Part shown: piece by piece, positions 4,396 to 20,582 of the stretch
Layout: each line of letters starts with the position of its first letter
Position numbering within the stretch: position 1 is the stretch's first letter
Assembly (NCBI GenBank): GCA_902627635.1
Contig: CACOKA010000005.1
Span: 1-50,251, forward strand
DNA length: 50,251 bases
Direction: 5' to 3'
From: an uncultured Candidatus Actinomarina sp.
GTDB taxonomy: Bacteria; Actinomycetota; Acidimicrobiia; Actinomarinales; Actinomarinaceae
Notes under the pieces: model-generated
What the model was told of the DNA's origin: nothing
Databases searched by the model: none
What the model saw: only the letters and a program-made list of their open reading frames with translations
Program-made: the position numbers and the translations under genes

Positions 4396-4845
4396 TTATT
4401 TCCACCAAGATTCATGTGGAAAATCAACCCAGACATTTTCTGTATCTTTTGCCAAATCCCTAATGTAATAATGTGGCTCAAAATCACACTCATTATTCCA
4501 CCAAAGTGAAACAAATCTAACGTCACATTCATGATTTATATTTTCTTTAATATATTTAGAAAGCCTTTCAAAAGTTTCACCACTGTCACAAATGTCATCA
4601 ACAATCAAAACTTTTTCATCTTTAGACTTAGGTAAGTAGTTTTCCCAATGTGGGAAGTCTCTTGTTGATGCATGTACTGGTTTGAATGGAATATTTAATT
4701 TATGAGAAATCATAACTCCAGGTATTAATCCTCCACGACTTATTCCAACAATAACATCGGGAACAAAATCATCTTTTTCAATAAGTTCACAAATTTGGTT
4801 TGTATCTTTTAGTTGATCATCCCAAGAGTAAAAAAGTTTTTCCAT
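4396..4845 (-). CDS. Purine (xanthine/hypoxanthine-guanine type) phosphoribosyltransferase
   Basis: VIVGISRGGLIPGV and VLIVDDICDSGET PRPP-binding motif. Confidence 0.82.
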   Translation of the reverse strand: MEKLFYSWDDQLKDTNQICELIEKDDFVPDVIVGISRGGLIPGVMISHKLNIPFKPVHASTRDFPHWENYLPKSKDEKVLIVDDICDSGETFERLSKYIKENINHECDVRFVSLWWNNECDFEPHYYIRDLAKDTENVWVDFPHESWWK

Positions 4846-4973: not shown

Positions 4974-6002
4974 ATGCGCAAAAGTTGGGCAGTAGGCCTA
5001 ATTATTATCAGTATTCTTACTATGGCCTGCGGTGGAGCCGCAGACGTAGATGATTACAAAGCTGCTTTTGTTTATCTAGGATCCGCAAATGACGGAGGAT
5101 GGACACAGGCACATGACGAAGGTCGTCAATATCTTGTTGAGGAGACAGGAATAGAGACAGCTTTCACAGAGGATGTTCCCCCAGATGCAACTGAATTTAG
5201 AACAGTTGCGGAAGCGTATATTGAACAAGGCTACAATATTATCTTTGGAACAACTTTCGGTTATCTAGATATCATGGAGGAAATGGCATTGGAATATCCT
5301 GATGTAACATTCCTTCACTGTTCTGGATATAAATCTAATGACTCAAACTATACAAATTATTTTGGAAAGATTTATGAAGCAAGATATTTGTCAGGTTTAG
5401 CAGCAGGTTCACTTACTGAGTCAAACAAGATTGGTTATGTAGCTGCATTTCCAATTCCAGAAGTCATAAGAGGAATTAATGCTTTTGCAAATGGTGTAAA
5501 AGAAGTAAATCCTAATGCAACTGTTGAAGTTGTATGGACAAATACATGGTTTGGTCCTGAGGAAGAAACACAAGCTGCAAATGCACTCTTAGAAGCTGGG
5601 GCTGATGTTCTTACGCAACATCAAGATTCTGCATCTACAGGAATTGCTGCAGAGGCAGCTGGAGCTAAATGGATTGGTTACCACACAGGTTATGGTAAAG
5701 ATGCCGCTCCAAACGCATTTGTTACTGCGCCAGTATGGAACTGGGGTCCACTTTATACTGAAATGGTAAACGCAGTAATTAACGACGAATTCACAACAAC
5801 TCCATATTGGACAGGAATGTCTGGGAATGTTGTTGATTTATTTGAAGTATCAGATGACGTATCAAGTGATATTAAGACACTCATCGAAGATAGAAAACAA
5901 GAAATTATTGACGGAACTTTTGAAATTTTTGAAGGTTCAAGTGATGGTGACTTGTTGGGCATGAGTTACTTTGTTGACAACGTTGTAGGTACACTAGATT
6001 AA
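4974..6002 (+). CDS. BMP family (PnrA/Med-like) nucleoside-binding lipoprotein
   Basis: Signal peptide with lipobox-like LTMAC; BMP-type N-terminus and GIAAEAAGAKWIGYHTGYG; followed by ATPase and two permeases. Confidence 0.88.
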   Translation: MRKSWAVGLIIISILTMACGGAADVDDYKAAFVYLGSANDGGWTQAHDEGRQYLVEETGIETAFTEDVPPDATEFRTVAEAYIEQGYNIIFGTTFGYLDIMEEMALEYPDVTFLHCSGYKSNDSNYTNYFGKIYEARYLSGLAAGSLTESNKIGYVAAFPIPEVIRGINAFANGVKEVNPNATVEVVWTNTWFGPEEETQAANALLEAGADVLTQHQDSASTGIAAEAAGAKWIGYHTGYGKDAAPNAFVTAPVWNWGPLYTEMVNAVINDEFTTTPYWTGMSGNVVDLFEVSDDVSSDIKTLIEDRKQEIIDGTFEIFEGSSDGDLLGMSYFVDNVVGTLD

Positions 6003-6010
6003 ATGTTTAT

Positions 6011-6050
6011 ATTACAGCACCTCTATTAAGAGGTGCTGTAATTTTTTTTA
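6011..6050 (+). terminator. Rho-independent terminator or attenuator after the BMP lipoprotein gene
   Basis: Perfect 14-bp stem attacagcacctct/agaggtgctgtaat, 4-nt loop atta, then a run of 8 T. Confidence 0.9.
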
Positions 6051-7546
6051 TGAATAATAAATTTTTAAAAACCAGAAATGTAACCAAAACGTTTGGAAAA
6101 TTAAAAGCTTTAGATGACGTAAACTTTAATCTATACCAAGGAAAAATTCATGGGTTACTTGGTGAAAATGGTGCTGGAAAATCTTCATTAATGAACATAT
6201 TATCTGGAATATACCAACCAGATAAAGGTTCAATTTATCTTGATGGTGAAAAACAAAAAATTTTAAATCCCGATTTTGCTTCCAAACTTGGTATTGGAAT
6301 GGTTCATCAAGAGTTTCGATTAATTGAAAGCTTTAGTATTAAAGACAATTTGACACTTTCCAAGTCAAATATTTACAAAAATGATTTCTTAAAATCTTTT
6401 AAAAAATACTCAGAAATATTTGCACTTAATGTAAATGAAAATGAAATAATTTCAAATTTATCAGTTGGTGAAAAACAAAAAATTGAAATAATGAAACTAA
6501 TTTTTAACGACAGCAGAATTATGCTACTTGATGAACCAACAGCTGTTCTCACTCCTCAGGAAACTTCTCAACTTAAAAACTCACTCGTAACTTTGGCACA
6601 AGAAGATATGAAAACGATTGTATTGATTACGCATAAATTAAAAGAGATCAAAGAATTTACTGAAATAGTATCAGTTTTGAAAAATGGGAAGATGGTTGCT
6701 AAAGATTTGCCAACGAAAGATGTGACAGATAATCAGCTTATTGAACTGATGATGGGTACGGTAAAAACATCTACTGTAAACAAAGATAATGAAGTTGGAA
6801 AAATTAAATTAAATGTTGAGAATATAAACTACACAGATTCTGTTAATAAAATAAAAAAACTTGAAGACATTAATTTCCAAATAAAGGCTGGAGAAATTTT
6901 AGGTTTAGCTGGGGTGTCTGGCAATGGTCAAGTAGAGCTTGCAAATATTATTTCAGGAATAGAGAGAGTATATGAAGGAAAAATAATTATTGATAATACA
7001 GATGTTTCAAGTAAAGGTGTGAGGTCCAGAAAGAAACTAAATTTATCTTATATCCCTGAAAATAGACTCGGGGTTGGCCTTGCACCTGGTGTATCTGTCA
7101 TAGATAATTCGATAGTTAAAGATTATTTTCATACAAAACTAGGTCCACATTTATCTAGAAACAAAACATCAAATTACCTTGAGAGTTTGGTCAAACAATT
7201 TTCAATAAAGGCACCTAATCCAAAAGCTGAAATTTCTACATTATCTGGAGGAAACATGCAAAAATTATTGATGGGTAGAGAATTAGTTGGTGATCCTGAT
7301 GTAATTATTGCCTCCCAACCAACAAGAGGTTTAGATGTAAATGCAGTTGATGCAATTCATAACTTATTGATTGATCAAAGAAATAAGGGTTCAGCAATTT
7401 TTTTAATTTCGGAAGATCTAGATGAATTATTTAAGTTATCTAACAGATTACTGGTTATCTTTGAAGGTAAAATTGTAAAATCTTTCAACACTGTAGATGC
7501 GGATATTAATGATGTTGGTTTGGCAATGGCGGGGGTTAATGAATAA
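6050..7546 (+). CDS. Nucleoside/simple-sugar ABC transporter ATP-binding protein (two fused NBDs)
   Basis: Walker A GLLGENGAGKSSLMNILSGIY, MLLDEPTAVLTPQE, second NBD TLSGGNMQKLLMGREL. Confidence 0.92.
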   Translation: MNNKFLKTRNVTKTFGKLKALDDVNFNLYQGKIHGLLGENGAGKSSLMNILSGIYQPDKGSIYLDGEKQKILNPDFASKLGIGMVHQEFRLIESFSIKDNLTLSKSNIYKNDFLKSFKKYSEIFALNVNENEIISNLSVGEKQKIEIMKLIFNDSRIMLLDEPTAVLTPQETSQLKNSLVTLAQEDMKTIVLITHKLKEIKEFTEIVSVLKNGKMVAKDLPTKDVTDNQLIELMMGTVKTSTVNKDNEVGKIKLNVENINYTDSVNKIKKLEDINFQIKAGEILGLAGVSGNGQVELANIISGIERVYEGKIIIDNTDVSSKGVRSRKKLNLSYIPENRLGVGLAPGVSVIDNSIVKDYFHTKLGPHLSRNKTSNYLESLVKQFSIKAPNPKAEISTLSGGNMQKLLMGRELVGDPDVIIASQPTRGLDVNAVDAIHNLLIDQRNKGSAIFLISEDLDELFKLSNRLLVIFEGKIVKSFNTVDADINDVGLAMAGVNE

Positions 7547-8597
7547 ATATATTTTAACAAAGCGCCAAGTTGTAAATGAACTATCTACTTTTTACTCTTT
7601 TCTATTAGGTTTTTTAATTGCCCTGATGATTGGGTCAATCATTTTATTAATTCAGGATAAGAATCCATTTGATACTTTTTCGCTTATGTTTAAATTATCA
7701 ATTGGAAGTGTTAACAGTCTTAGTTCATCTTTAAATAAAGCTACACCTCTTATCCTCGCAGGTTTGGGAATAGCCATAATAAATACTGTAAAGCTTTGGA
7801 ACATTGGCGCAGAAGGCCAAATTTTTATGGGCGCAATTGCTGTAAATCTAATTTATATTAATTTTCAATTGACCAACTCAACTTCATTTATTTTTGTTCT
7901 TTTGGTTTCGGCATTTATCGGAGGTGCATTTTGTATATTAATTCCTGCTATTACAAAGGTACTATTTGGGGTTAATGAAATAATTACAACTTTACTGACA
8001 AACTATATTGTTATAGGTTTAACTATATATCTCGTAAACGGACCCTGGAAAGACCCTGGATCATTAAATTTTCCTGCTGCAGCTTATGTAGGAAAAGAAG
8101 TATATTTACCAACCATTTTTGGGAAATTAAGTTATGGGTTTTTAATTTGTATATTATTTACTGTTTTTGCACATTACCTTAAAAATAGTTCTGTTTTCGG
8201 CTACGAAATGAGAATTGCTGGTGGATCAGAAATGACCGCAATTTATGCAGGAATCAATGCTAAACAAAAAGCTTTTTTTGCAATGTTAATAGGTGGAGGG
8301 TTTGCAGGATTAGCTGGAGGAGTAGAATTATTAAGCCAGACCCATCGTGTTTCTACAGGTATATCACAGGGATTTGGATACACTGCCATAATTGTGGCCG
8401 CAATAACTGGGATGCGTCCAATTGGTATTTTTCTTGTTGGATCTCTGTTTGGAGCTTTATCTATTGGAGGTTCTGTAATTCAAACAATTGGTGTTAGCAC
8501 ATATATTGCTGATATAATTCAAGCCTCTACTCTATTTGGTGCATTAGTTATTCAGTTTTTTTTCAATTATAAATTAAAGAGAGCTGATGATGGTTGA
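7539..8597 (+). CDS. Nucleoside ABC transporter permease
   Basis: WNIGAEGQIFMGAIAV, GVNEIITTLLTNYI; start moved from 7497 to the internal ATG (MNKYILTK) to reduce overlap. Confidence 0.9.
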   Translation: MNKYILTKRQVVNELSTFYSFLLGFLIALMIGSIILLIQDKNPFDTFSLMFKLSIGSVNSLSSSLNKATPLILAGLGIAIINTVKLWNIGAEGQIFMGAIAVNLIYINFQLTNSTSFIFVLLVSAFIGGAFCILIPAITKVLFGVNEIITTLLTNYIVIGLTIYLVNGPWKDPGSLNFPAAAYVGKEVYLPTIFGKLSYGFLICILFTVFAHYLKNSSVFGYEMRIAGGSEMTAIYAGINAKQKAFFAMLIGGGFAGLAGGVELLSQTHRVSTGISQGFGYTAIIVAAITGMRPIGIFLVGSLFGALSIGGSVIQTIGVSTYIADIIQASTLFGALVIQFFFNYKLKRADDG

Positions 8598-9513
8598 TGT
8601 ACAATTTCTTGGATTACTAAATGCAACATTACAAGCCGCAACACTCTTGTTTATTGCTTCACTTGGAGAATTAATTACTGAAAAATCAGGAATTCTTAAT
8701 CTTGGAGTTGAAGGAATGATATCGATTGGAGCAGTTACAGGATTTATGACTGCAGTAAATACAAACAATATTTATCTTGCAATAGTCGTCGGAATTTTTT
8801 CATCATCAATCTTTGCTTCTTTGCATGCAATTGTGACAGTAATTTTAAAACAAGACCAAACAGTCTCAGGTTTGATATTAACAATACTTGGTTTAGCGGT
8901 TTCCTCTTTACTTGGAAAAAATTATGTAGGTAGGAAACTTGAAACAAAGATTGATAGTCTTTTTAATATTGAAAATCCCTCTAATGTTTTAGAAGTTTTT
9001 TTAAGTCAAAACATAATTTTTTATCTCGCAATTATATTTACAATTACAATTTCTTACATACTTAAGAACACAATGTTTGGAACAAGATTTCAAGCTGTTG
9101 GAGAAGACGCAAAAGCAGCTGACTCAATGGGGCTTAATATTTCAAAAACACAATTTATTGCTACTTGTATTGGTGGTGCTTTCGCTGGACTATCAGGAGT
9201 ATTTTTAACATTAAGCTACGTACCATATTGGACTGATAACATGACTGCCGGTAGAGGCTGGATAGCTTTGGCATTAGTAATTTTTGGAGGATGGAAGCCT
9301 TACAGAACAGCCTTGGGAGCACTTTTGTTTGGATTTCTTGAAGCTTTAGTCCCAAGATTGCAAACATATGGTTTTGAATTGAATCCTTACATTGTAAAAA
9401 TTACCCCTTATATAATAACAATTCTTGTTTTAGTTATGCTCACAATTTACAAAGGTGGAAAAACTGGAGCTCCCAAAAATATCGGAATCCCATTCTTTAG
9501 AGAAAATAGATAA
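8587..9513 (+). CDS. Nucleoside ABC transporter permease
   Basis: SGILNLGVEGMISIGAVTGF; overlaps the preceding permease gene. Confidence 0.9.
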   Translation: MMVDVQFLGLLNATLQAATLLFIASLGELITEKSGILNLGVEGMISIGAVTGFMTAVNTNNIYLAIVVGIFSSSIFASLHAIVTVILKQDQTVSGLILTILGLAVSSLLGKNYVGRKLETKIDSLFNIENPSNVLEVFLSQNIIFYLAIIFTITISYILKNTMFGTRFQAVGEDAKAADSMGLNISKTQFIATCIGGAFAGLSGVFLTLSYVPYWTDNMTAGRGWIALALVIFGGWKPYRTALGALLFGFLEALVPRLQTYGFELNPYIVKITPYIITILVLVMLTIYKGGKTGAPKNIGIPFFRENR

Positions 9514-9561
9514 CTAACAGAAATTACTGTTGTAATTTGCTATTATTAAAGGAACTTTAAA

Positions 9562-9585
9562 CAATGCCTGTGAGTATTGAAAGGA
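9562..9585 (+). promoter_or_regulatory. Candidate PyrR-binding hairpin overlapping the pyrR Shine-Dalgarno region
   Basis: caatg-CCTGTGAG-tattg: CCTGTGAG fits the CCNGNGAG core of the PyrR binding loop; closing stem caat/attg; followed by SD gaaagga and ATG at 9590. Confidence 0.65.
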
Positions 9586-9589
9586 TAAA

Positions 9590-10066
9590 ATGACTATAGA
9601 CAAAATTCTATATCGCCTCAGTAAAGAAATCATTGAATCAAATATTTCAAATCCTTATCTATTAGGCATTCCAAAAAGAGGCGACCTTTTAGCTCAAAGA
9701 ATATCTAATAATTTATCAGGAGAAAACTTTAGACATGACTTAGGAAAAGTGGACTACTTACCATTTAGAGATGATTTAGATAAAAACTTAGAGAAAAATA
9801 TTCTTGATATATCACCAGAAAATAGAGAGGTGATATTAATTGACGACGTTATTTATACAGGTAGAACATTAAGGGCATCTATTGAAGCAGTAATGTACTC
9901 TGGGCGACCAAAATCTATTTCACTTTTATGTCTTATTGACCGAGGACACAGAGAACTGCCTATCACGCCTAAATTTGTTGGTAAAAATATACCAACAAAT
10001 CAAGACGAGTATGTCTCTGTTTTTTTGAAAGAAATAGATAATGAAGACAAGGTCGAGGTTACATAG
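9590..10066 (+). CDS. pyrR: Bifunctional pyr operon regulator / uracil phosphoribosyltransferase PyrR
   Basis: LGIPKRGDLLAQRI, VDYLPFRDDL, VILIDDVIYTGRTLRASIEAV, SLLCLIDRGHRELPI; first gene of pyr operon. Confidence 0.93.
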   Translation: MTIDKILYRLSKEIIESNISNPYLLGIPKRGDLLAQRISNNLSGENFRHDLGKVDYLPFRDDLDKNLEKNILDISPENREVILIDDVIYTGRTLRASIEAVMYSGRPKSISLLCLIDRGHRELPITPKFVGKNIPTNQDEYVSVFLKEIDNEDKVEVT

Positions 10067-10068
10067 AA

Positions 10069-10947
10069 ATGAGACATCTTTTAGATTTTCAAGATGTAAA
10101 TAAAAACCATTTAGAAAATCTAATTGAAAAAACCAGAAGTCTTGAATTTAAATCAGAAAATATAGACTCCTTAGCCCTCTTGAAGTTTGACGAACCTTCA
10201 ACAAGAACAAGGCTCTCTTTTGCAATAGCAGCAGAAAAACTTGGAATTAAAACTTTTGAATCTTCAGATGTTATATCGGCAAAACAAAAAGGAGAAATTC
10301 TTAAACATGAAATAGAGACATACATTTCTATGGGTATTGAGATTCTAGTGTTAAGGACAAAAAAAAATAATATTGATGATTATCGAGAATTTAAAGACAT
10401 TGGTGTTGTAAGTGCTGGTTTTGGAAATAAATCTCATCCAACTCAAGCATTGATTGATATATCTACACTGTTTAGTTTGAATAAAATCAATGAGAAACTT
10501 ACCCCAATAACTTATATTGGCGACGTAAAACATTCAAGAGTATTTGAATCGGGAAGACAGCTGCTAAATTTATTAGGATTCAAAGTTGGTGTCTTTACGG
10601 ATAAAAATCTATTACCTGAAAATAAAAATGACCTTGAAATTTATGAATCATGGGATGAGGTATTTGAAAGTTCTAACGCAATTGAACTTCTAAGAGTACA
10701 GAAAGAACGATTACAAGACAATGAAGAAATAAACTTTGATGAATATATAAATAATTATCAACTTACACAAGAAATTTTAGGTAAATCACAAAGTGATTTG
10801 GCTGTTCTTCATCCAATGCCGATCAATATTGGTATTGAGATTTCTAAAGATGCTATTGAAGATAGGAAAATAAAATATAAGGACCAGCTTTCACACGCTA
10901 TACCTTCACGAATTGCAGCATTCAAATATGTAAGGGATGAAATATGA
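10069..10947 (+). CDS. pyrB: Aspartate carbamoyltransferase catalytic subunit
   Basis: EPSTRTRLSF, SHPTQALIDI, DVKHSRV, HPMPINIGIEI. Confidence 0.93.
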   Translation: MRHLLDFQDVNKNHLENLIEKTRSLEFKSENIDSLALLKFDEPSTRTRLSFAIAAEKLGIKTFESSDVISAKQKGEILKHEIETYISMGIEILVLRTKKNNIDDYREFKDIGVVSAGFGNKSHPTQALIDISTLFSLNKINEKLTPITYIGDVKHSRVFESGRQLLNLLGFKVGVFTDKNLLPENKNDLEIYESWDEVFESSNAIELLRVQKERLQDNEEINFDEYINNYQLTQEILGKSQSDLAVLHPMPINIGIEISKDAIEDRKIKYKDQLSHAIPSRIAAFKYVRDEI

Positions 10948-11999
10948 TCGAAATTCCTGGATTTATCGATCTCCATACTCACACAAGATATCCGGACAAT
11001 GATAAATTTCCTTTCATCGATATCGATGATTCAGCAATTAATGGTGGCTTTTCAACAATACTCGCAATGCCAAATTCTGAAATACCTATTGACTCGATTA
11101 AAAACCTAAGAATTGCTCAGGAAATAGATAAAAAATTAAAAACAAAGGTACATCGTGTTGGCTCATTAACAAAAAATTTAGAAGGAAAAGAGCTTGTAAA
11201 TTATAAAGAATTCGTTGAAAACGGTATCACAATTTTTTCCGATGATGGAAAATCTTTGATTGATGATCATCTAGCTGATGAGGCATTTAAACAAATCAGC
11301 AAACTTGGTGGTGCAGTTTTTCAACATTGTGAAAAAAGTTGTCACTCAAAGCCTGGTGACATTGCTCCTCCAAATAGTAATAGTGACTTGATTCCAATAA
11401 ATAATGATGAGGAGTTGGAAGTTCTTGAAAGAGACTTAAATTTATCTCAAAAATATGGGACAAGATACCATGCTCAACACCTTTCAACTTTTGAAAGTGT
11501 TGAGCTGATAAAAAAAGCAAAACAAGAAGGTCTTCCTGTCACTGCAGAAGTGACACCACATCACATACTTCTAAATAATGAAAATTTAGACACAAATAAT
11601 GGACTATTTAAGATGTATCCACCCCTCAGAACTGAAAAAGACAGAGAAGGATTGGTTGATGGGTTACAGTCTGAAATTATAGATGTCATTGCTACAGATC
11701 ACGCACCTCATAAAGCAGAAACTAAAAATGTGCCTTTTAAAGATGCTAATCGTGGCGTTGTTGGTCTTGAATCAGCTTTTCCCTTGATTTATAGTTCAAA
11801 TATTTTTGATATAGATCAAATGTTGAAATTTTTAGTTATAAATCCTACAAAAATACTCACTGAACTTGGTTACGAAATTCCTAAGACAGTAAATACATGG
11901 AAGAAATCAAAGTCAGTTTTTATTACAAAATCAAAATTCAAAAATTCATTATTTGAAAATGAAAATATAGAAATTGAAAGGGTTCTTTCAGGTGTATAA
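10944..11999 (+). CDS. pyrC: Dihydroorotase, lacking the usual N-terminal segment
   Basis: PGFIDLHTHTRYPD, TAEVTPHHILL, VIATDHAPHKAETK; ATGA overlap with pyrB. Confidence 0.9.
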   Translation: MIEIPGFIDLHTHTRYPDNDKFPFIDIDDSAINGGFSTILAMPNSEIPIDSIKNLRIAQEIDKKLKTKVHRVGSLTKNLEGKELVNYKEFVENGITIFSDDGKSLIDDHLADEAFKQISKLGGAVFQHCEKSCHSKPGDIAPPNSNSDLIPINNDEELEVLERDLNLSQKYGTRYHAQHLSTFESVELIKKAKQEGLPVTAEVTPHHILLNNENLDTNNGLFKMYPPLRTEKDREGLVDGLQSEIIDVIATDHAPHKAETKNVPFKDANRGVVGLESAFPLIYSSNIFDIDQMLKFLVINPTKILTELGYEIPKTVNTWKKSKSVFITKSKFKNSLFENENIEIERVLSGV

Positions 12000-13092
12000 A
12001 AAAGCAATACTGTTGAATCAAAATGGTGATGAATTTCTAGGTTGGACAACTGAGTCATTTAAGCCAACAACTGGAGAACTTATTTTCAATACAGCGATGA
12101 CTGGGTTTGTCGAAATATTAAGTGATCCATCATATATAAACCAGATTGTAACTTTTACTTCCTCACATATAGGAAATTACGGTATGTCAAAAAATGATTT
12201 TGAATCCAATAAACCAAAAATTGAAGCAGCCATTGGAAATTCTTTTACAAACTCTCCATCTTCATGGCGATCTGAGAAATCAATAACGTCATGGTTGAAA
12301 GAATATGAGATTCCATACAGTGGTGGATTTGATGTAAGAAATATAACAAAATATCTAAGAGACAATGGTTCGAGTATGTTTGCACTTGGCATAGATGTTG
12401 ATACAAAAGATTTAAAAGAAATTTTATCAAAAGCAAAAAATATTCTTGGTGATAGTTCAGCAATGACTGCAGGTAACCAGAATAATGAAAATACTTCAAC
12501 TGAAGGAAAGATTGGAATTATAGATCTAGGAGCTAAAAGAAGCATTATAAAAGTGCTTAAAGACCATGATTACAAAGTTGTAATGATTTCACCCTCTTCA
12601 ACACCAAATGAGATTTTAAAAATGAATTTAAAAGGTCTTTTAATTTCGAACGGACCAGGCGACCCAAGATCATTGGTTACAGTAATAGATACTGTTCAAA
12701 ACCTTATAGGAAAACTTCCAATATTTGGAATTTGTCTTGGTCATCAAATACTTGGTTTGGCTTGTGGTCTTAAAGTTAAAAAAATGCAGTTTGGTCATCA
12801 TGGCTCAAATCATCCAGTTGAAATAGAGGGAATAAAAAAAGCTCTAATAACCGCACAGAACCATGGTTTCTCTATTGAGGAGTTTGGAGATGGGTTTGAG
12901 CATGAAAATTTTGGAAACATTAATGTTTTTGCAAGGAATTTAAATGATGGAACAAATGAAGGAATTAGCCTGTGGGAATCTATGGCGTACTCAGTTCAAT
13001 TTCATCCAGAATCAGGACCTGGTACAACTGATGGATTGCAAATTTTTAATCCTTTTTTTGAAATGATTGAAAAAAACTATGCCAAAAAATAA
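11992..13092 (+). CDS. carA: Carbamoyl-phosphate synthase small subunit
   Basis: [39 protein letters not shown]; likely GTG start at 11992 rather than 11974. Confidence 0.94.
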
Positions 13093-16000
13093 AGAAATTA
13101 AGAGTATTTTGATAATTGGTTCGGGACCAATTGTTATAGGTCAAGCTTGCGAGTTTGATTATTCAGGATCTCAAGCAGCTAAGGCACTTAAAAAAGAAGG
13201 ATTTCGTGTAATTCTAGTTAATTCAAATCCAGCGACTATTATGACAGATCCAGAAATGGCACATGCCACATACATCGAGCCTTTAACTCACGACTACCTA
13301 AAAAAAATAATCGAAATAGAAAATCCTGATGCTGTTTTACCAACATTAGGAGGACAAACTGCACTTAACTTATCGATTGAATTAGAAAAAAGTGGTGTTT
13401 TAAAAGAAAATAATGTCGAACTTCTTGGAGCCTCAGCCAATGCTATTGAGATTGCAGAAAACAGATGGAAATTTAAAGAAGCTATGGATGGAGTTGGTAT
13501 TAAAACACTTAAGGCAACTTATGCTAAGTCTTTTGATGAGGGAATAAACGCTAGTAAAGAAATTGGCTTTCCATTAATGCTAAGACCATCATTTATTCTC
13601 GGTGGCGGTGGAACAAGTGTAGTGAATAATGAAGAGGACTTTAAATCAAAATTATCTGACGCGTTTAATGCATCTCCTACTCAAGAAGTCTTAATTGAAG
13701 AATCAATTTATGGATGGAAAGAATTCGAACTCGAAGTAATGAGAGATAGTGATGGCAATGGTGTAATTGTTTGCGGAATAGAAAATTTTGATCCCATGGG
13801 CGTTCATACTGGAGACTCAATAACAGTTGCTCCTATTCAAACATTATCTGATAAAGAATATCAAACTATGAGGGATGAGGCACTACTTTGTTTGGATACT
13901 ATTGGAATAGCAACTGGTGGTAGTAATGTGCAATTTGCTATAAACCCTGAAAATGGTGATAGAAGAATTATTGAAATGAATCCGAGGGTCTCAAGGTCCT
14001 CTGCTCTAGCTTCAAAAGCAACTGGATTTCCTATTGCCAAGTTTGCTGCTCTGTTAGCGGTAGGTTACAACTTAACTGAACTTGAAAATGACATAACTGG
14101 AACAACACCTGCTAGTTTTGAACCTGTCCAAGATTATGTTGTTGTTAAAATTCCTAGATTTGATTTTCCAAAATTTCCATCAACAGATGACAAATTAGGC
14201 ACATCAATGCAGAGTGTGGGTGAAGTTATGTCAATAGCTTCTACTTTTACAGAAAGCTTAACTAAAGCTATTAGGTCCCTTGAAATTGGTAAATCAGGAA
14301 TAAGAAATATAGACAATAGGTTTATAGGAATGCCAAAAGAAATTCTACAAGATGAAATCAGGACACCTAGACCTAGAAGAATATTTGCAATCCTTGAGGC
14401 GATCAGAAGAAACTGGCCACTTGAAGACATTGCAAAAATATCTTCTGTAGATATATGGTTTTTACAAGAAATTGAAAAAAGTTTTAATGTTAACCCTGAA
14501 AATACTCCATCCTCTATTCTCAAAATGCTTGGATGGACGGAAGAAGATCTTGATAATAAAGAGTCTAAAAATGAATTGGAAAGTAATAGAGTTTATAAGT
14601 TAGTTGATACATGTTCTGCGGAGTTTGAGTCCAAAACACCTTACTTGTATTCAACAAATGGTGTGAGTAATGACGATACAACTACCAACAAAAAGAAGGT
14701 TGTAGTTATTGGATCGGGTCCAAATAGAATTGGCCAAGGAATTGAGTTTGATTATTGTTGTGTTCATGGAATCAGTTCATTAAAAGAAAATGGATTTGAA
14801 GCAATAATGATAAACTCAAATCCGGAAACGGTTTCTACAGATTACGATACTGCAGATAAACTATATTTCGAGCCTCTTACATGGAGAGAAGTAAAATCTG
14901 TACTAAATAGAGAGCAGCCTGATTCGGTAATAATTCAACTTGGAGGTCAAACTCCATTAAAACTTGCAAAAAATATATCCAAAGAAGGTTTTAATATTGC
15001 TGGGTCATCATTAGATGTAATTGACAAAACAGAAGATAGAGATCTATTTCAAAAACTATGTTTGGATCAGAATATTCGACAACCAGAATCTAAAATTGCA
15101 AAAAATGAGAACAATCTAGTTGAAGCTGTAAGAGAAATAGGTTTTCCAGTCTTGTTACGGCCTAGTTATGTATTAGGTGGAAGAGCCATGAGGGTTGTTC
15201 AAACTGATGAAGAACTTGAAAATTATTTGGATATATTAGCGAGTGCAGATGAAGATGGTAATCCATTTAAATCTGGTCCTCTTTTAGTTGATCAATTTTT
15301 AACGGACACTATTGAGATTGATGTTGACTTAATTTCTGATGGAAAAGAGGTTTATATAGCTGGAATTTTAGAACATCTTGAGCCTGCTGGAGTACATAGT
15401 GGTGATTCTACAGCTGTCATTCCTCCTTATAGTGTTGGTGAGGAAATGTTGAAAGAAATAGAGGAAAAAAGTAAAAAGCTTGCTTTAGGTCTAAATGTAA
15501 AGGGACTTCTAAATATACAATTTGCCATTAAAGATGAAGAATTATTCATATTAGAAGCGAACCCTAGAGCATCAAGAACAATGCCATTCGTTGCAAAAGT
15601 AACGGGAAATCAAATTATTAAAGCTGGAACATTATTAATGCTTGGTTATTCAATTGATGAAGTTAGAAATAAGACTAAATACTTGAGTAGCTCATCAAAT
15701 AAAGTGGCAATTAAAAAGGCTATATTTCCATGGTCTAGATTTCCAGCTGAAGACACTATGTTAGGACCGGAGATGAAAGCAACTGGTGAAGTATTAGGGG
15801 TTGGAAAAGAGTTTGGTACTGCATTAAATAAAGCTTATGCAGCTGCAGGTGTAGAAATTAATAATAAAGAGAAAGGGATATTTGTAACTTTAAGTGACAA
15901 CGAAAAGCCAAATTTTATTAAGACAGTAAATAAATATCTTGAACTTGGCTTCACACTATACTCGACTGAAGGAACAGGAAAATTTCTTAAAACTAATGGT

Positions 16001-16261
16001 ATTGATTCAGTAATAGTTGGTAAAGCTGATGACTTAGGACAAACTTCGTTAACAATAATTGAAGATAAATTAGTTTCTTTAGTAATCAATACACCAACAT
16101 ATGCAAATGAATTGTCAGATGGTTGGAAAATTAGACGTTTATCACATGAAACTGGAGTAGCGGTTGTTTCATCTGTAAGAGAAGCTGATGCATTTATTGA
16201 AGCATTTTTAAATCAGAACTTAGTATTTGATGATCTGGAGGTTATACAAGATGTCAGTTAA
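13079..16261 (+). CDS. carB: Carbamoyl-phosphate synthase large subunit
   Basis: Duplicated ATP-grasp architecture; [22 protein letters not shown] and [23 protein letters not shown]; start at MPKNKEIKS preferred. Confidence 0.96.
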
Positions 16262-16889
16262 ACCAATTTTCTTTGCACTAGATGGTAAGTCGCTAAAAGA
16301 ATTTAAAGAACAATTAGATGTCTTAAAGGGTCATATTTATGGGGTAAAAGTTGGATTAGAACTTTTTACTTCCGAAGGCCCTTCATGTGTTGAACAACTA
16401 AAAAATGATGGGTGGGTTGTTTTCTTAGATTTAAAACTACATGACATCCCAAACACTGTAGGTCAAGCTACTGCTTCAGTATCAAATATTGGAGCAGACT
16501 ATTTAACTTTACATATATCATCTGGGAAAGAAGCATTATCAGAAGCTGTGAATAAAAAAAGTAAAGATTTAAATCTTCTTGGAGTCAGTAGTGCTTTAAC
16601 AAGTAAATCAGTTGATTCAAATACAAGCAAGATTGTTCAAGATGAGTTTCAAATAGCTAAAGACTCAAATTTAGAAGGCGTTATTTGCCCAGCATCTGAA
16701 ATTGCTAATACAACAAATTTATTTGATCTAATTGTTACACCAGGCATTAGATTAGAAAATGATTTACATGAAGATCAAAAAAACATAACTACTCCTAAAA
16801 AGGCTATACAGCTTGGAGCAAAATATATTGTTATGGGACGGTCAATTAAAAATAATCCTTCAATGGTAATAGATGAATTAGAAGTATGA
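16251..16889 (+). CDS. pyrF: Orotidine 5'-phosphate decarboxylase
   Basis: [44 protein letters not shown]; start moved to 16251 (MSVKPIFF). Confidence 0.92.
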
Positions 16890-17563
16890 ATAAATTTATT
16901 GCAGCACCTTTTGGAAACTACATAAAGACTAAAAATACTATTTCAGTATCTGGTAGTTGGACCGTTGAAAAAAGAACAGGTCGAATTGTTCAAATAGTTA
17001 AAACTTTACGATATACAAAACGTGGATGGGTTAACAAAATTGGTTTAAGAAATCCCGGTTTAACAATTGGGCTTCCAAAACATAAAACTGGTGAAGTCTT
17101 TTCAATTGCAGGAATAGAAAAAAATGATTGGAGATTATTTGCAGAAAAAATACCAAATGATTTCAATATTGAAGTCAATATGTCATGTCCAAATATAGAC
17201 GCGCATTACATTGACGGAATTGAAGATTTTGAACCAGATACAAGAAACTGGTACATAGGAAAAATTTCGCCACTTACTACTTTTCAGGAATTGGATGAGT
17301 ACATCAACAAATTTAGATTCAAACAGATTCATGCATGCAATACATTGCCAATAGATAAAGGAGGGCTGAGTGGTAAAGAGTTGATCCCATATACTTCAAA
17401 GTTTGTTAAACACATTAAAGATTCTTACCCAGATATTGAAGTTATTGCAGGTGGAGGTATTGATTCTCTAAAAGAGATAGAGTACTACAAAAATATTGGT
17501 GCCGATCATATTAGTTTGGGTACTGTTTGTTTCAATCCACTAAAATTAAGGAAGTTAATATGA
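16886..17563 (+). CDS. Dihydroorotate dehydrogenase-like protein (short, 225 aa)
   Basis: VNKIGLRNPGL, IEVNMSCPN, CNTLPIDKGGLSG, VIAGGGIDSLKEIEYYKNIGADHISLGT; position in pyr operon. Confidence 0.78.
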   Translation: MNKFIAAPFGNYIKTKNTISVSGSWTVEKRTGRIVQIVKTLRYTKRGWVNKIGLRNPGLTIGLPKHKTGEVFSIAGIEKNDWRLFAEKIPNDFNIEVNMSCPNIDAHYIDGIEDFEPDTRNWYIGKISPLTTFQELDEYINKFRFKQIHACNTLPIDKGGLSGKELIPYTSKFVKHIKDSYPDIEVIAGGGIDSLKEIEYYKNIGADHISLGTVCFNPLKLRKLI

Positions 17564-17916
17564 ATTTATTTATTAAAGAAGATTTCATCTCTCATGCTGG
17601 CTTACCACTTACATGGAAAGTGGAATGTGATGCACTAGATGAAAATGACTACGAAGCATTGGCAAAAATAGTAAGTGAAAAAATGACTTTTAGAGATGTC
17701 AAAGGTATTCCACGTGGTGGCATACCGTTTGAAAAAGCATTAAAACCTTACTGTTCAAACAATGATACAGATCCACTACTTATCTGTGATGATGTTTACA
17801 CAACTGGTACTTCAATGAGAAAAGTCTATGAAGATGGAGCATTAGGAATTGTTGTATTTGCTAGAAATGAAATTCAAGATGACTGGGTAAAAGCTATTTG
17901 GCAGTTATCAATATAA
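17560..17916 (+). CDS. Small phosphoribosyltransferase (118 aa) in the pyrE position
   Basis: PLLICDDVYTTGTSM PRPP motif and IPRGGIPFEKAL; ATG at 17560 overlaps the preceding stop. Confidence 0.72.
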   Translation: MNLFIKEDFISHAGLPLTWKVECDALDENDYEALAKIVSEKMTFRDVKGIPRGGIPFEKALKPYCSNNDTDPLLICDDVYTTGTSMRKVYEDGALGIVVFARNEIQDDWVKAIWQLSI

Positions 17917-18779
17917 ATATGATAGAAAATAAGTATGCCTCAGCTTTAGATGGTCTTGAAATAGAAGATCCAGTACAAAGCTTTTTTGATTTCTGTAAAG
18001 AACGAGAAAATATAAGAATTTTAAGAGAAAGTGGTGAAGATTTTCCATGGAGTACGGATGAAATTTTCCAAAATGGAAGGTTCCTGAATGTCTTTAGAGA
18101 AGATGATCGAGTTAGTAAATCAATTATTAAATTTGCGGGTAATTTAAATGAAAATCCAGCAAAATTAATAAATGCTGTATTTTTTGCAAGATGGTGTAAT
18201 AGGCAGGAAGTTTTAGATACATTAACGCCCGAAGATTTAGATGATCCTAATGACTTAAAAAATAAATTAGAAAGTATTGATCCATGGTGTAATGAAACTG
18301 CATATCCTGTTGAACCAATTACATGGGAAGGTGAACAGTACTCAAGAATTGATGCTGCAACTAAATTATTTTATGAGGTACAAGATTCTTTATTAAATAT
18401 TCTTGAATCATCAAACAAAAGTGTGATTACCGCAACCAACAACATAAATAAAGAATTTCAAATGCAAAATGATTTTCCAATATTCATGGCAGTCATTGAT
18501 ATTGCATGGTTTAGACCCGATATTATTCCAATTGAAAGTGAGGTTCCTACAGGAATAGGTGCCGTTGCTTATCTTGATAGATTGCAAAGTCATCTTGGTT
18601 TAAGTTCCCACCAAGAAGTTGGTGAAAAAATGATTGAACTCCAAAAAACATACTGGCCTGAGGCAAAACGTGGTTTTAATCCAATAGATATTGAATATTT
18701 AGCCTGTGAATGTAGAAAATACTATAGCTATGTAAATGAGACAAAGGTTTTTGAAGGTAAAAACAAATTTATACCTTAA
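17898..18779 (+). CDS. HMUDK_hel / alpha-glutamyl(putrescinyl)thymine pyrophosphorylase-like helical-domain protein
   Basis: FPWSTDEIFQNGRFLNVFREDDRVSKSIIKFA resembles the RFxNVxRxxDRVS hallmark; later VPTGIGAVAYLDRL. Family call from memory, no search run; ATG at 17919 is the likely start. Confidence 0.55.
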   Translation: MAVININMIENKYASALDGLEIEDPVQSFFDFCKERENIRILRESGEDFPWSTDEIFQNGRFLNVFREDDRVSKSIIKFAGNLNENPAKLINAVFFARWCNRQEVLDTLTPEDLDDPNDLKNKLESIDPWCNETAYPVEPITWEGEQYSRIDAATKLFYEVQDSLLNILESSNKSVITATNNINKEFQMQNDFPIFMAVIDIAWFRPDIIPIESEVPTGIGAVAYLDRLQSHLGLSSHQEVGEKMIELQKTYWPEAKRGFNPIDIEYLACECRKYYSYVNETKVFEGKNKFIP

Positions 18780-19211
18780 TTAGCTAAGTTTATTAATTCT
18801 ATTTATGTATCTTTCCTCATTTAAAAAAGAGGAATTTAAAAATGACTCAGTTATTTCTTTTGCAGCCTCAATATCTAGATTTTCCGAACCGAGACATAGA
18901 ACATTTACATCATTATGCTCAACAGATTGAATAGCGGTTTTTACATTAGTGACATTAGAAGCTCTTATACCTTTTACTTTATTTGCTGCAATAGACATGC
19001 CAACACCTGTCCCACATATTAAAACTCCCTTTGTGTCCTCATTATCCAAAACAAAATTAGATACTTTCGTTGCATAATCTGGAAAATCACAAGGTTCCAA
19101 ATTATTAGTTCCTAAGTCCTCAATTTCAAGATCAGAAGACAAATATTCTATTAATAATTGTTTTAATTCAAAACCTGCATGATCAGAAGCAATAGCGATT
19201 TTATTAACCAC
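18780..19211 (-). CDS. rpiB: Ribose-5-phosphate isomerase B
   Basis: IASDHAGFELKQLL, GVLICGTGVGMSIAANKVKGIRA, HNDVNVLCLG; GTG start. Confidence 0.92.
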   Translation of the reverse strand: MVNKIAIASDHAGFELKQLLIEYLSSDLEIEDLGTNNLEPCDFPDYATKVSNFVLDNEDTKGVLICGTGVGMSIAANKVKGIRASNVTNVKTAIQSVEHNDVNVLCLGSENLDIEAAKEITESFLNSSFLNEERYINRINKLS

Positions 19212-20582
19212 TAGATAAGCTTCTCTATATCCAAAAGATCATCAATATCACCTTCAGACATTAATTCTTTACTAAGCAATACTTCTTTAATAGTTAATCC
19301 ATTTTTTCATAGCTTCTTTGGCTACTTCAGCAGCAACATCATACCCAAGCTTTGGTACAAGTGCTGTAACTAGGATTGAGTTTTTTTGAGTATCTTCATT
19401 TAGCTTTTCAGTATTTGCTTCTAGGTCCTTTATTAGTTTTTCCCCAAATACACTCACTCCAGTGGTGAGTAAAGCAATGCTTTCAAGTAAATTGTGAGCC
19501 ATTACAGGAAGCATTGTGTTAAGCTCAAAATTTCCATTCGCTGATGAAAACGTAATGGTTGTATCGTTTCCAATAACTTGAGCTGATACCTGCATCATCA
19601 TTTCAGGTATGACAGGATTTACTTTTCCAGGCATTATTGATGAACCTGGTTGCAAAGCAGGAATTTTCAAATCTCCCAATCCTGAAACTGGTCCACTACC
19701 CATCCATCTAATATCATTTGCAATTTTAAAGAGCGATACTGCAAGTGCCTTCAAAGCACTTGATAAATGAACCACTTCTTCTCTTGATCCTTGTCTTGTG
19801 AAATGATTTTCAACTTCTTTAAAAGGTATACCAATTGATGACTGAAGTTCACTTGCAACATCAGCCCCAAAATTATCAGGAGCATTTATTCCAGTACCGA
19901 CGGCGGTCCCCCCAATTGCTAATTTCTGAACATTATCTAAAGAGACTTTAATGTCCCCCATCCTTTCATTTATTAAGTCAGCATATCCAGAAAATTCTTG
20001 ACCTAAACTAACAGGTGTAGCATCCATTAAATGAGTTCTTCCGTTTTTATAGACTTTCTCCCACTGTTTTGCCTTTTCATTAATTAATGAAATAAGATTA
20101 TCTAATTCAGGGATGAGCCCTTCAGTAACATCTATTACCGCAGCAACATTTGTAGCTGTTGGAATAACATCATTTGATGATTGACTCATATTTACATGAT
20201 CGTTTGGATGTATTGATTCACCAGTTTTATCAGATGCTATTTTTGCAATGATTTCATTTGCATTCATATTTGTAGAAGTGCCTGATCCTGTTTGGAAAAT
20301 ATCAACTGCAAAATCCTTATCATGATTTCCTGAGATTACTTCTTCAGCACCATCAATAATTGCAGTTGCTATTTTTTTATCTAATAATTTATTATCTTGA
20401 TTTACTATGGCACAAGCTTTTTTAATTTCACCAAGTGCTCTTATAAATGATCTAGAGAACTTAAGTTCTGAGATTGGAAAATTTTCAATTGCTCTCGCAG
20501 TTGAAGCACCATACATAGCATCAATAGGTACTTCAAATTCACCCATTGAGTCTTTTTCTATTCTTGTTTCTTTTTTATTCAA
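19211..20582 (-). CDS. fumC: Class II fumarate hydratase, apparent frameshift in an A6 run near the C-terminus (listed ORF ends at 19287)
   Basis: GSSIMPGKVNPVIPEMMMQV, TGSGTSTNMNANEI; dropping one A at 19302-19307 gives AMKNGLTIKEVLLSKELMSEGDIDDLLDIEKLI ending at 19211. Confidence 0.9.

Follow-up and report, generated by a model that had tools for sequence, protein, structure and literature searches.

Compact phage-type enzymes as the probable DHODH and orotate PRTase of Candidatus Actinomarina

The pyrimidine operon of Candidatus Actinomarina ends in two short genes of a type found in marine phages, and these compact forms of pyrD and pyrE probably replaced the canonical enzymes and serve as the working DHODH and orotate phosphoribosyltransferase (OPRT) of the genus. 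No other candidate for either enzyme was found in the genus. Both enzyme activities, as well as acquisition of the genes from a marine phage, are inferred. A third gene of the HMUDK_hel family adjoins the pair and is separate from it.

Organization of the operon

The window, meaning the whole stretch of DNA that was analysed, comprises 50,251 nucleotides from an uncultured Candidatus Actinomarina sp. whose genome of ~0.81 Mb is 77% complete and has its nearest public relatives in Candidatus Actinomarina / OCS155. A sequence-only reading of this DNA had described the operon as canonical up to pyrF, and the order pyrR-pyrB-pyrC-carA-carB-pyrF was confirmed. The three ORFs that it placed after pyrF, encoding a DHODH-like protein, a PRTase, and an HMUDK_hel-type protein, are present there and overlap or abut one another. 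The features are as follows.

4974..9513, + strand: BMP-type (nucleoside-like) ABC transporter genes (ORFs, relatives of NCBIfam BMP/ABC permease models); left flank of a variable slot, conserved in all compared genomes
9590..10066, + strand: pyrR, regulator/uracil PRTase (NCBIfam PyrR models, E down to 1.9e-48)
10069..10947, + strand: pyrB (ORF recognised from sequence; conserved operon order)
10944..11999, + strand: pyrC (ORF recognised from sequence; conserved operon order)
11974..16261, + strand: carA and carB (ORFs recognised from sequence; conserved operon order)
16227..16889, + strand: pyrF, OMP decarboxylase (PF00215, E=2.6e-35); start probably at 16251
16886..17563, + strand: compact class-1-type DHODH, 225 aa (PF01180, E=1.9e-11; 139 viral relatives; active-site positions invariant in 75 sequences)
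17186..17188, + strand: codon of Cys101 within N-x-S-C-P-N, predicted to be the catalytic cysteine (compact-DHODH alignment; aligns with the class-1B motif of 1EP1)
17560..17916, + strand: compact PRTase of 118 aa that lacks the flexible loop, presumably an orotate PRTase; frame from the ATG at 17560 to the stop at 17916 (PRPP motif; 520 viral relatives; profile alignment with canonical OPRT)
17776..17814, + strand: PRPP-binding motif LLICDDVYTTGTS of the compact PRTase (sequence; PF00156 match region)
17919..18779, + strand: stand-alone HMUDK_hel-family gene (PF18723, E=1.4e-18; independent presence and absence); adjoins the pyr module and is not part of it
18780..19211, - strand: convergent rpiB-like gene that bounds the variable slot on the right

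An Rfam search of positions 9300-19300 gave no match, and no terminator-like site was found in 17500-19000. The three genes after pyrF are conserved across Actinomarina with dN/dS of 0.05-0.17, and chance ORFs or decaying and truncated genes are ruled out by these low values and by the constant gene length. PADLOC returned no match for the HMUDK_hel protein or for either compact enzyme, so a role in anti-phage defence was rejected.

Sequence features of the compact enzymes

The 225-aa protein passes the curated cut-off of PF01180 (44.2 bits vs 27) and does not reach the curated pyrD cut-off. Its best structure matches by profile are class 1B PyrD enzymes (Lactococcus, PDB 1EP1-1EP3; 5UE9, E=2.4e-13), with which it shares the N-x-S-C-P-N cysteine motif, the lysine, and the N-T, G-G-x-S-G and GGG motifs. 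Class 1B PyrD has ~305 aa, whereas the compact form has deletions in its N-terminus and in the loop that follows N-T. Among 75 compact DHODHs, N50, N103, K126, N152-T153, S162-G163 and the GGG motif (G189-191) are invariant, and Cys101 is found in 74, the remaining one having an ambiguous residue in its sequence. The N-terminal-strand lysine of class-1 enzymes is missing from the compact DHODH, and this was counted against its reading as PyrD. A search for the electron-transfer partner PyrK (PF10418) gave no match in the same genome, at 77% completeness.

The 118-aa PRTase has a complete PRPP motif, in which D77 and D78 are invariant in the PRTase alignment. Its match to PF00156 (E=0.006) is below the cut-off, and it misses the cut-off of the PyrE model TIGR00336 by a wide margin (14.3 bits vs 106.8). 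The likeness to OPRT comes from a single profile comparison (prob 92 over 88 columns), which includes a hood-like segment where F-x-S-H-A-G of the compact PRTase aligns with F-T-L-x-S-G of OPRT; a xanthine-type PRTase scored 89, its alignment being confined to 34 columns at the PRPP motif. The compact protein resembles PyrE in having the PRPP motif and in occupying the pyrE place in the operon. PyrE is ~170-180 aa long and has a flexible loop, R-K-E-x-K-D-x-G, whereas the compact PRTase lacks this loop: the profile alignment with canonical OPRT leaves a gap of 27 columns at R-K-E-A-K-D-H-G, and the spacing from GIPRGG to the PRPP aspartates (DDV) is 19-22 residues in compact PRTases vs ~41-46 in canonical OPRTs. 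In characterised OPRTs the flexible loop provides the catalytic lysine (PMC5430920); it is missing from phage and bacterial compact PRTases alike. The AlphaFold model of the compact PRTase had a low pLDDT (43). Within Actinomarina, dN/dS was 0.05-0.11 for the PRTase and 0.08-0.16 for the DHODH, with synonymous sites near saturation in the wider pairs.

These comparisons support the DHODH and PRTase assignments made in the sequence-only reading and point to a pathway in which the 225-aa protein would be a shortened class-1-type FMN TIM-barrel DHODH, with the catalytic cysteine, the FMN/orotate asparagines and the lysine kept, that oxidizes dihydroorotate to orotate. The 118-aa protein would be a type I PRTase that has a PRPP loop and an N-terminal hood like that of OPRT but no flexible catalytic loop, and it would convert orotate and PRPP to OMP. 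PyrF would then decarboxylate OMP to UMP.

Occurrence in Actinomarina and related genomes

PF01180 was met in 25 of 42 Actinomarina genomes, always by the compact form, and OMP decarboxylase (pyrF) occurs in exactly the same 25. The compact PRTase is present in 26 of the 42 and missing from all 254 other Acidimicrobiia searched; bacterial searches covered Acidimicrobiia for the PRTase and Actinomarina for the DHODH. DHODH is followed by PRTase in every full locus, and the operon always closes with this pair. The sequence-only reading had named full-length pyrD and pyrE at other places in the genome as evidence against its proposal, and these did not come to light: no second DHODH was found in the source genome, and canonical pyrE, judged by the PyrE cut-off, was found in 0 of 42 Actinomarina genomes. 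The same cut-off was reached by 49 of 80 genomes sampled from the class, all of them outside Actinomarina. Another PRTase gene in the window (4396-4845) was rejected as pyrE, as it is xanthine-PRT-like, occurs also in pyr-minus genomes, and does not co-segregate with the pathway.

At least three of the 17 genomes without the DHODH (G008, G018, G028) are interrupted at the operon or inside it by the end of a contig, and in others the junction is intact and the absence genuine. In several loci (L033, L237, L238, L242, L246, L047) the pyr operon is missing entirely or is represented only by pyrR, and the junction beside the BMP-type ABC transporter is intact. Intact junctions of this kind imply that pyrimidine auxotrophy varies within Actinomarina.

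Viral relatives

A profile scan detected the compact DHODH in 139 IMG/VR contigs, and the best 80 of the 139 have 46-55% identity over the whole length. The compact PRTase was detected in 520 viral contigs with a profile built from phage and Actinomarina PRTases, and the viral proteins are 48-50% identical to those of Actinomarina. Earlier viral scans with single sequences and an Actinomarina-only PRTase profile had given no compact DHODH or PRTase; profiles that included viral members gave both. Both enzymes are encoded on L285, L291, L298, L303, L311, L315, L265/L268 and 3300020469_003050 (L253 and L373), and pyrF directly precedes the DHODH gene in the viral loci L248 and L249, as in Actinomarina. 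We estimate that co-location of DHODH and PRTase in 12-kb stretches is not clearly above chance for a 150-kb genome, and a tight phage cluster is not claimed. Hallmark genes near the viral compact enzymes include a T4-like baseplate hub, tail genes, a DNA end protector, an SbcC-like gene, and DNA polymerase. Annotated phage records contain a single compact DHODH, in a 595-kb phage and at 34% identity.

The closest known viral counterpart of the compact PRTase is the pyrE of cyanophages and marine viromes: marine phages are known to carry this OPRT gene for pyrimidine synthesis (PMC9983427, PMC4022391). The 50,697 annotated phage records yielded no compact PRTase, so its family appears to differ from the known phage pyrE. 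Neither pyrD nor dihydroorotate is mentioned in PMC4022391, and among the papers searched none treats DHODH as an auxiliary gene of marine phages. Dihydroorotate and uracil also go unmentioned in the Actinomarinales genome paper.

Other genes were observed on these viral contigs. The contig with pyrF and compact DHODH at L249 has a gene for a PnrA/Bmp-type nucleoside-binding lipoprotein (L249:6060-7076); genes of this type also border the pyr operon of Actinomarina. A phage gene row at L307:4994-7639 consists of SAICAR synthetase, compact DHODH and AIR synthase, which places purine and pyrimidine genes next to each other. A class II tRNA-synthetase-like gene (~280 aa, PF00152) is frequent on contigs with compact DHODH or PRTase (13/80 and 20/80 loci; L285, L291, L312, L322-L326, L329-L406).

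The HMUDK_hel gene and the variable slot

The third protein had been described from the sequence as resembling HMUDK_hel, and profile searches bear this out (PF18723, 67.7 bits vs a cut-off of 25, E=1.4e-18; phrog_2396, E=1.2e-20). Its 293-aa frame opens at TTG 17898, and homologues put the start at ATG 17919 (286 aa), directly 3' of the PRTase stop. Comparison of bacterial and viral HMUDK_hel proteins by hhalign gave a full-length alignment (prob 99.8). Viral members have a helix-hairpin-like G-x-G segment, in place of which the bacterial protein has N-D-F-P-I-F-M. The structure model (pLDDT 73) had as its best Foldseek matches in a viral library the SP10 5-hmdU DNA kinase and the HMUDK_hel proteins of phiRSL1 and phiW-14, with prob 1.0 but E of 0.01-0.04. 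In a PDB fold search, AGOG/OGG/Qng1 (DNA-glycosylase-like) were among the matches of highest probability, at only 0.1-0.2 and none significant. The helical domain is shared with 5-hmdU DNA kinases, but HMUDK_hel was the only domain found and the P-loop kinase domain is absent. Relatives in viruses are common, and several named phage relatives are annotated merely as hypothetical proteins.

The chromosome order common to the compared Actinomarina is sufS, an XPRT-like gene, the BMP/ABC transporter, the variable slot, rpiB, fumC and sufC. The slot contains pyrR-to-PRTase together with HMUDK_hel in the window and several relatives, pyrR-to-PRTase only in G015 and G031, HMUDK_hel only in G011, G002, L033 and L047 (G011 and L033 being apparently the same contig), and pyrR only in G009 and G021. 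In G034, where the contig breaks off in carA, DHODH-PRTase is followed by rpiB without HMUDK_hel. HMUDK_hel was also found in 26 of 199 Marinimicrobia genomes as a solitary gene with unrelated neighbours, and five tested Marinimicrobia-type genomes have full-length DHODHs elsewhere. No compact DHODH or PRTase was found near HMUDK_hel in the viral loci, nor the converse. Slot states, Marinimicrobia contexts and the lack of viral co-occurrence rule out a single three-gene module, which the sequence-only reading had considered and for which it had proposed a survey of gene neighbourhoods. Its alternative, capture of a phage-type PRTase and helical pair as the pyrE replacement, is supported as regards a phage-type PRTase in the pyrE slot and not supported as regards HMUDK_hel.

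The HMUDK_hel gene is separate from the pyr module and appears to be a horizontally mobile single gene. Bacterial HMUDK_hel proteins form one clade apart from the viral proteins, and because Actinomarina falls in three places relative to Marinimicrobia, the tree suggests that the gene has moved between phyla. Its product is probably a stand-alone protein that is nucleic-acid-binding or base-directed. The bacterial gene is often the last one before a convergent neighbour (L003-L048, L212-L236), a position that may reflect tolerated insertion sites. In one Actinomarina group (L012, L014-L022; e.g., L016:144-2307) it comes directly after a polymerase gene of UmuC/DinB type that is read in the same direction, and this neighbour may hint at a role in DNA damage.

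Discussion

The DHODH-like protein and the PRTase could have a reaction other than those of PyrD and PyrE, such as reduction and salvage of pyrimidine bases, with unrecognised enzymes making and using orotate. The missed pyrD and pyrE cut-offs and the absence of the OPRT catalytic loop would fit this explanation, but we consider it improbable: the compact genes co-segregate with pyrF in 25 of 25 genomes and complete the pathway exactly, an alternative DHODH was found nowhere in the genus, and the DHODH active-site residues are invariant. A joint role of all three proteins, in which the pyrimidine bases of DNA are salvaged or modified and HMUDK_hel targets hydroxymethyluracil-type DNA, is very improbable. 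Besides the HMUDK_hel profile match, it would draw on the viral neighbourhoods, where a thymidylate-synthase (TS)-family gene is near HMUDK_hel in 71 of 80 loci (L094-L172, L049) and genes for amino acid:DNA transferase (ADDT), DAO, radical SAM or TAGT occur at some, as expected for thymidine hypermodification cassettes. Such cassettes have a TS-family hydroxymethyluridylate-type enzyme, whereas a TS-family gene (PF00303) was found in 0 of 42 Actinomarina genomes, which weakens the base-modification role raised in the sequence-only reading. The independent presence and absence at one slot, the viral loci in which HMUDK_hel and the compact enzymes are never together, and the unrelated Marinimicrobia contexts also argue against it.

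For the compact pair as PyrD and PyrE, the direction of transfer between phages and bacteria also has to be weighed. In a tree rooted on canonical class 1 DHODHs, all compact forms fall into one clade (100/100), within which Actinomarina makes up a single lineage (100/99) beside several viral lineages and the basal order is not fixed; in a midpoint-rooted tree, Actinomarina lies within a viral group supported at 97/97. The trees leave the direction unfixed, and transfer from phage to bacterium is favoured because viral diversity is greater and related bacteria carry canonical pyrE. The compact families may instead have arisen in bacteria and been captured by phages as auxiliary metabolic genes with the same enzymes and functions, in which case Actinomarina, or an unseen relative, would be the donor instead of the recipient. 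Such an origin is compatible with the single Actinomarina clade beside viral lineages of uncertain basal branching, and capture of host nucleotide genes by phages is common (PMC9983427, PMC4022391). We regard it as the less likely course, given that viral diversity far exceeds bacterial diversity, that other Acidimicrobiia have canonical pyrE and no compact PRTase (0/254), and that midpoint rooting places Actinomarina within the viral group.

It is a real possibility, which we rate slightly below an even chance, that the genus runs two steps of an essential core pathway on virus-derived compact enzymes, with a loopless OPRT, and that the same enzymes let hundreds of marine phages seize pyrimidine synthesis. 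If the proposed roles are correct, the compact PRTase family, with members on more than 500 marine viral contigs, could be assigned a function, and an OPRT that works without the catalytic loop thought essential for the family would pose an enzymological question. The pyrE of these bacteria would escape annotation pipelines, and Actinomarina could be miscalled as pyrimidine auxotrophs. In these abundant, streamlined ocean bacteria, virus-type enzymes would then be the sole DHODH and OPRT of the cell in de novo UMP synthesis.
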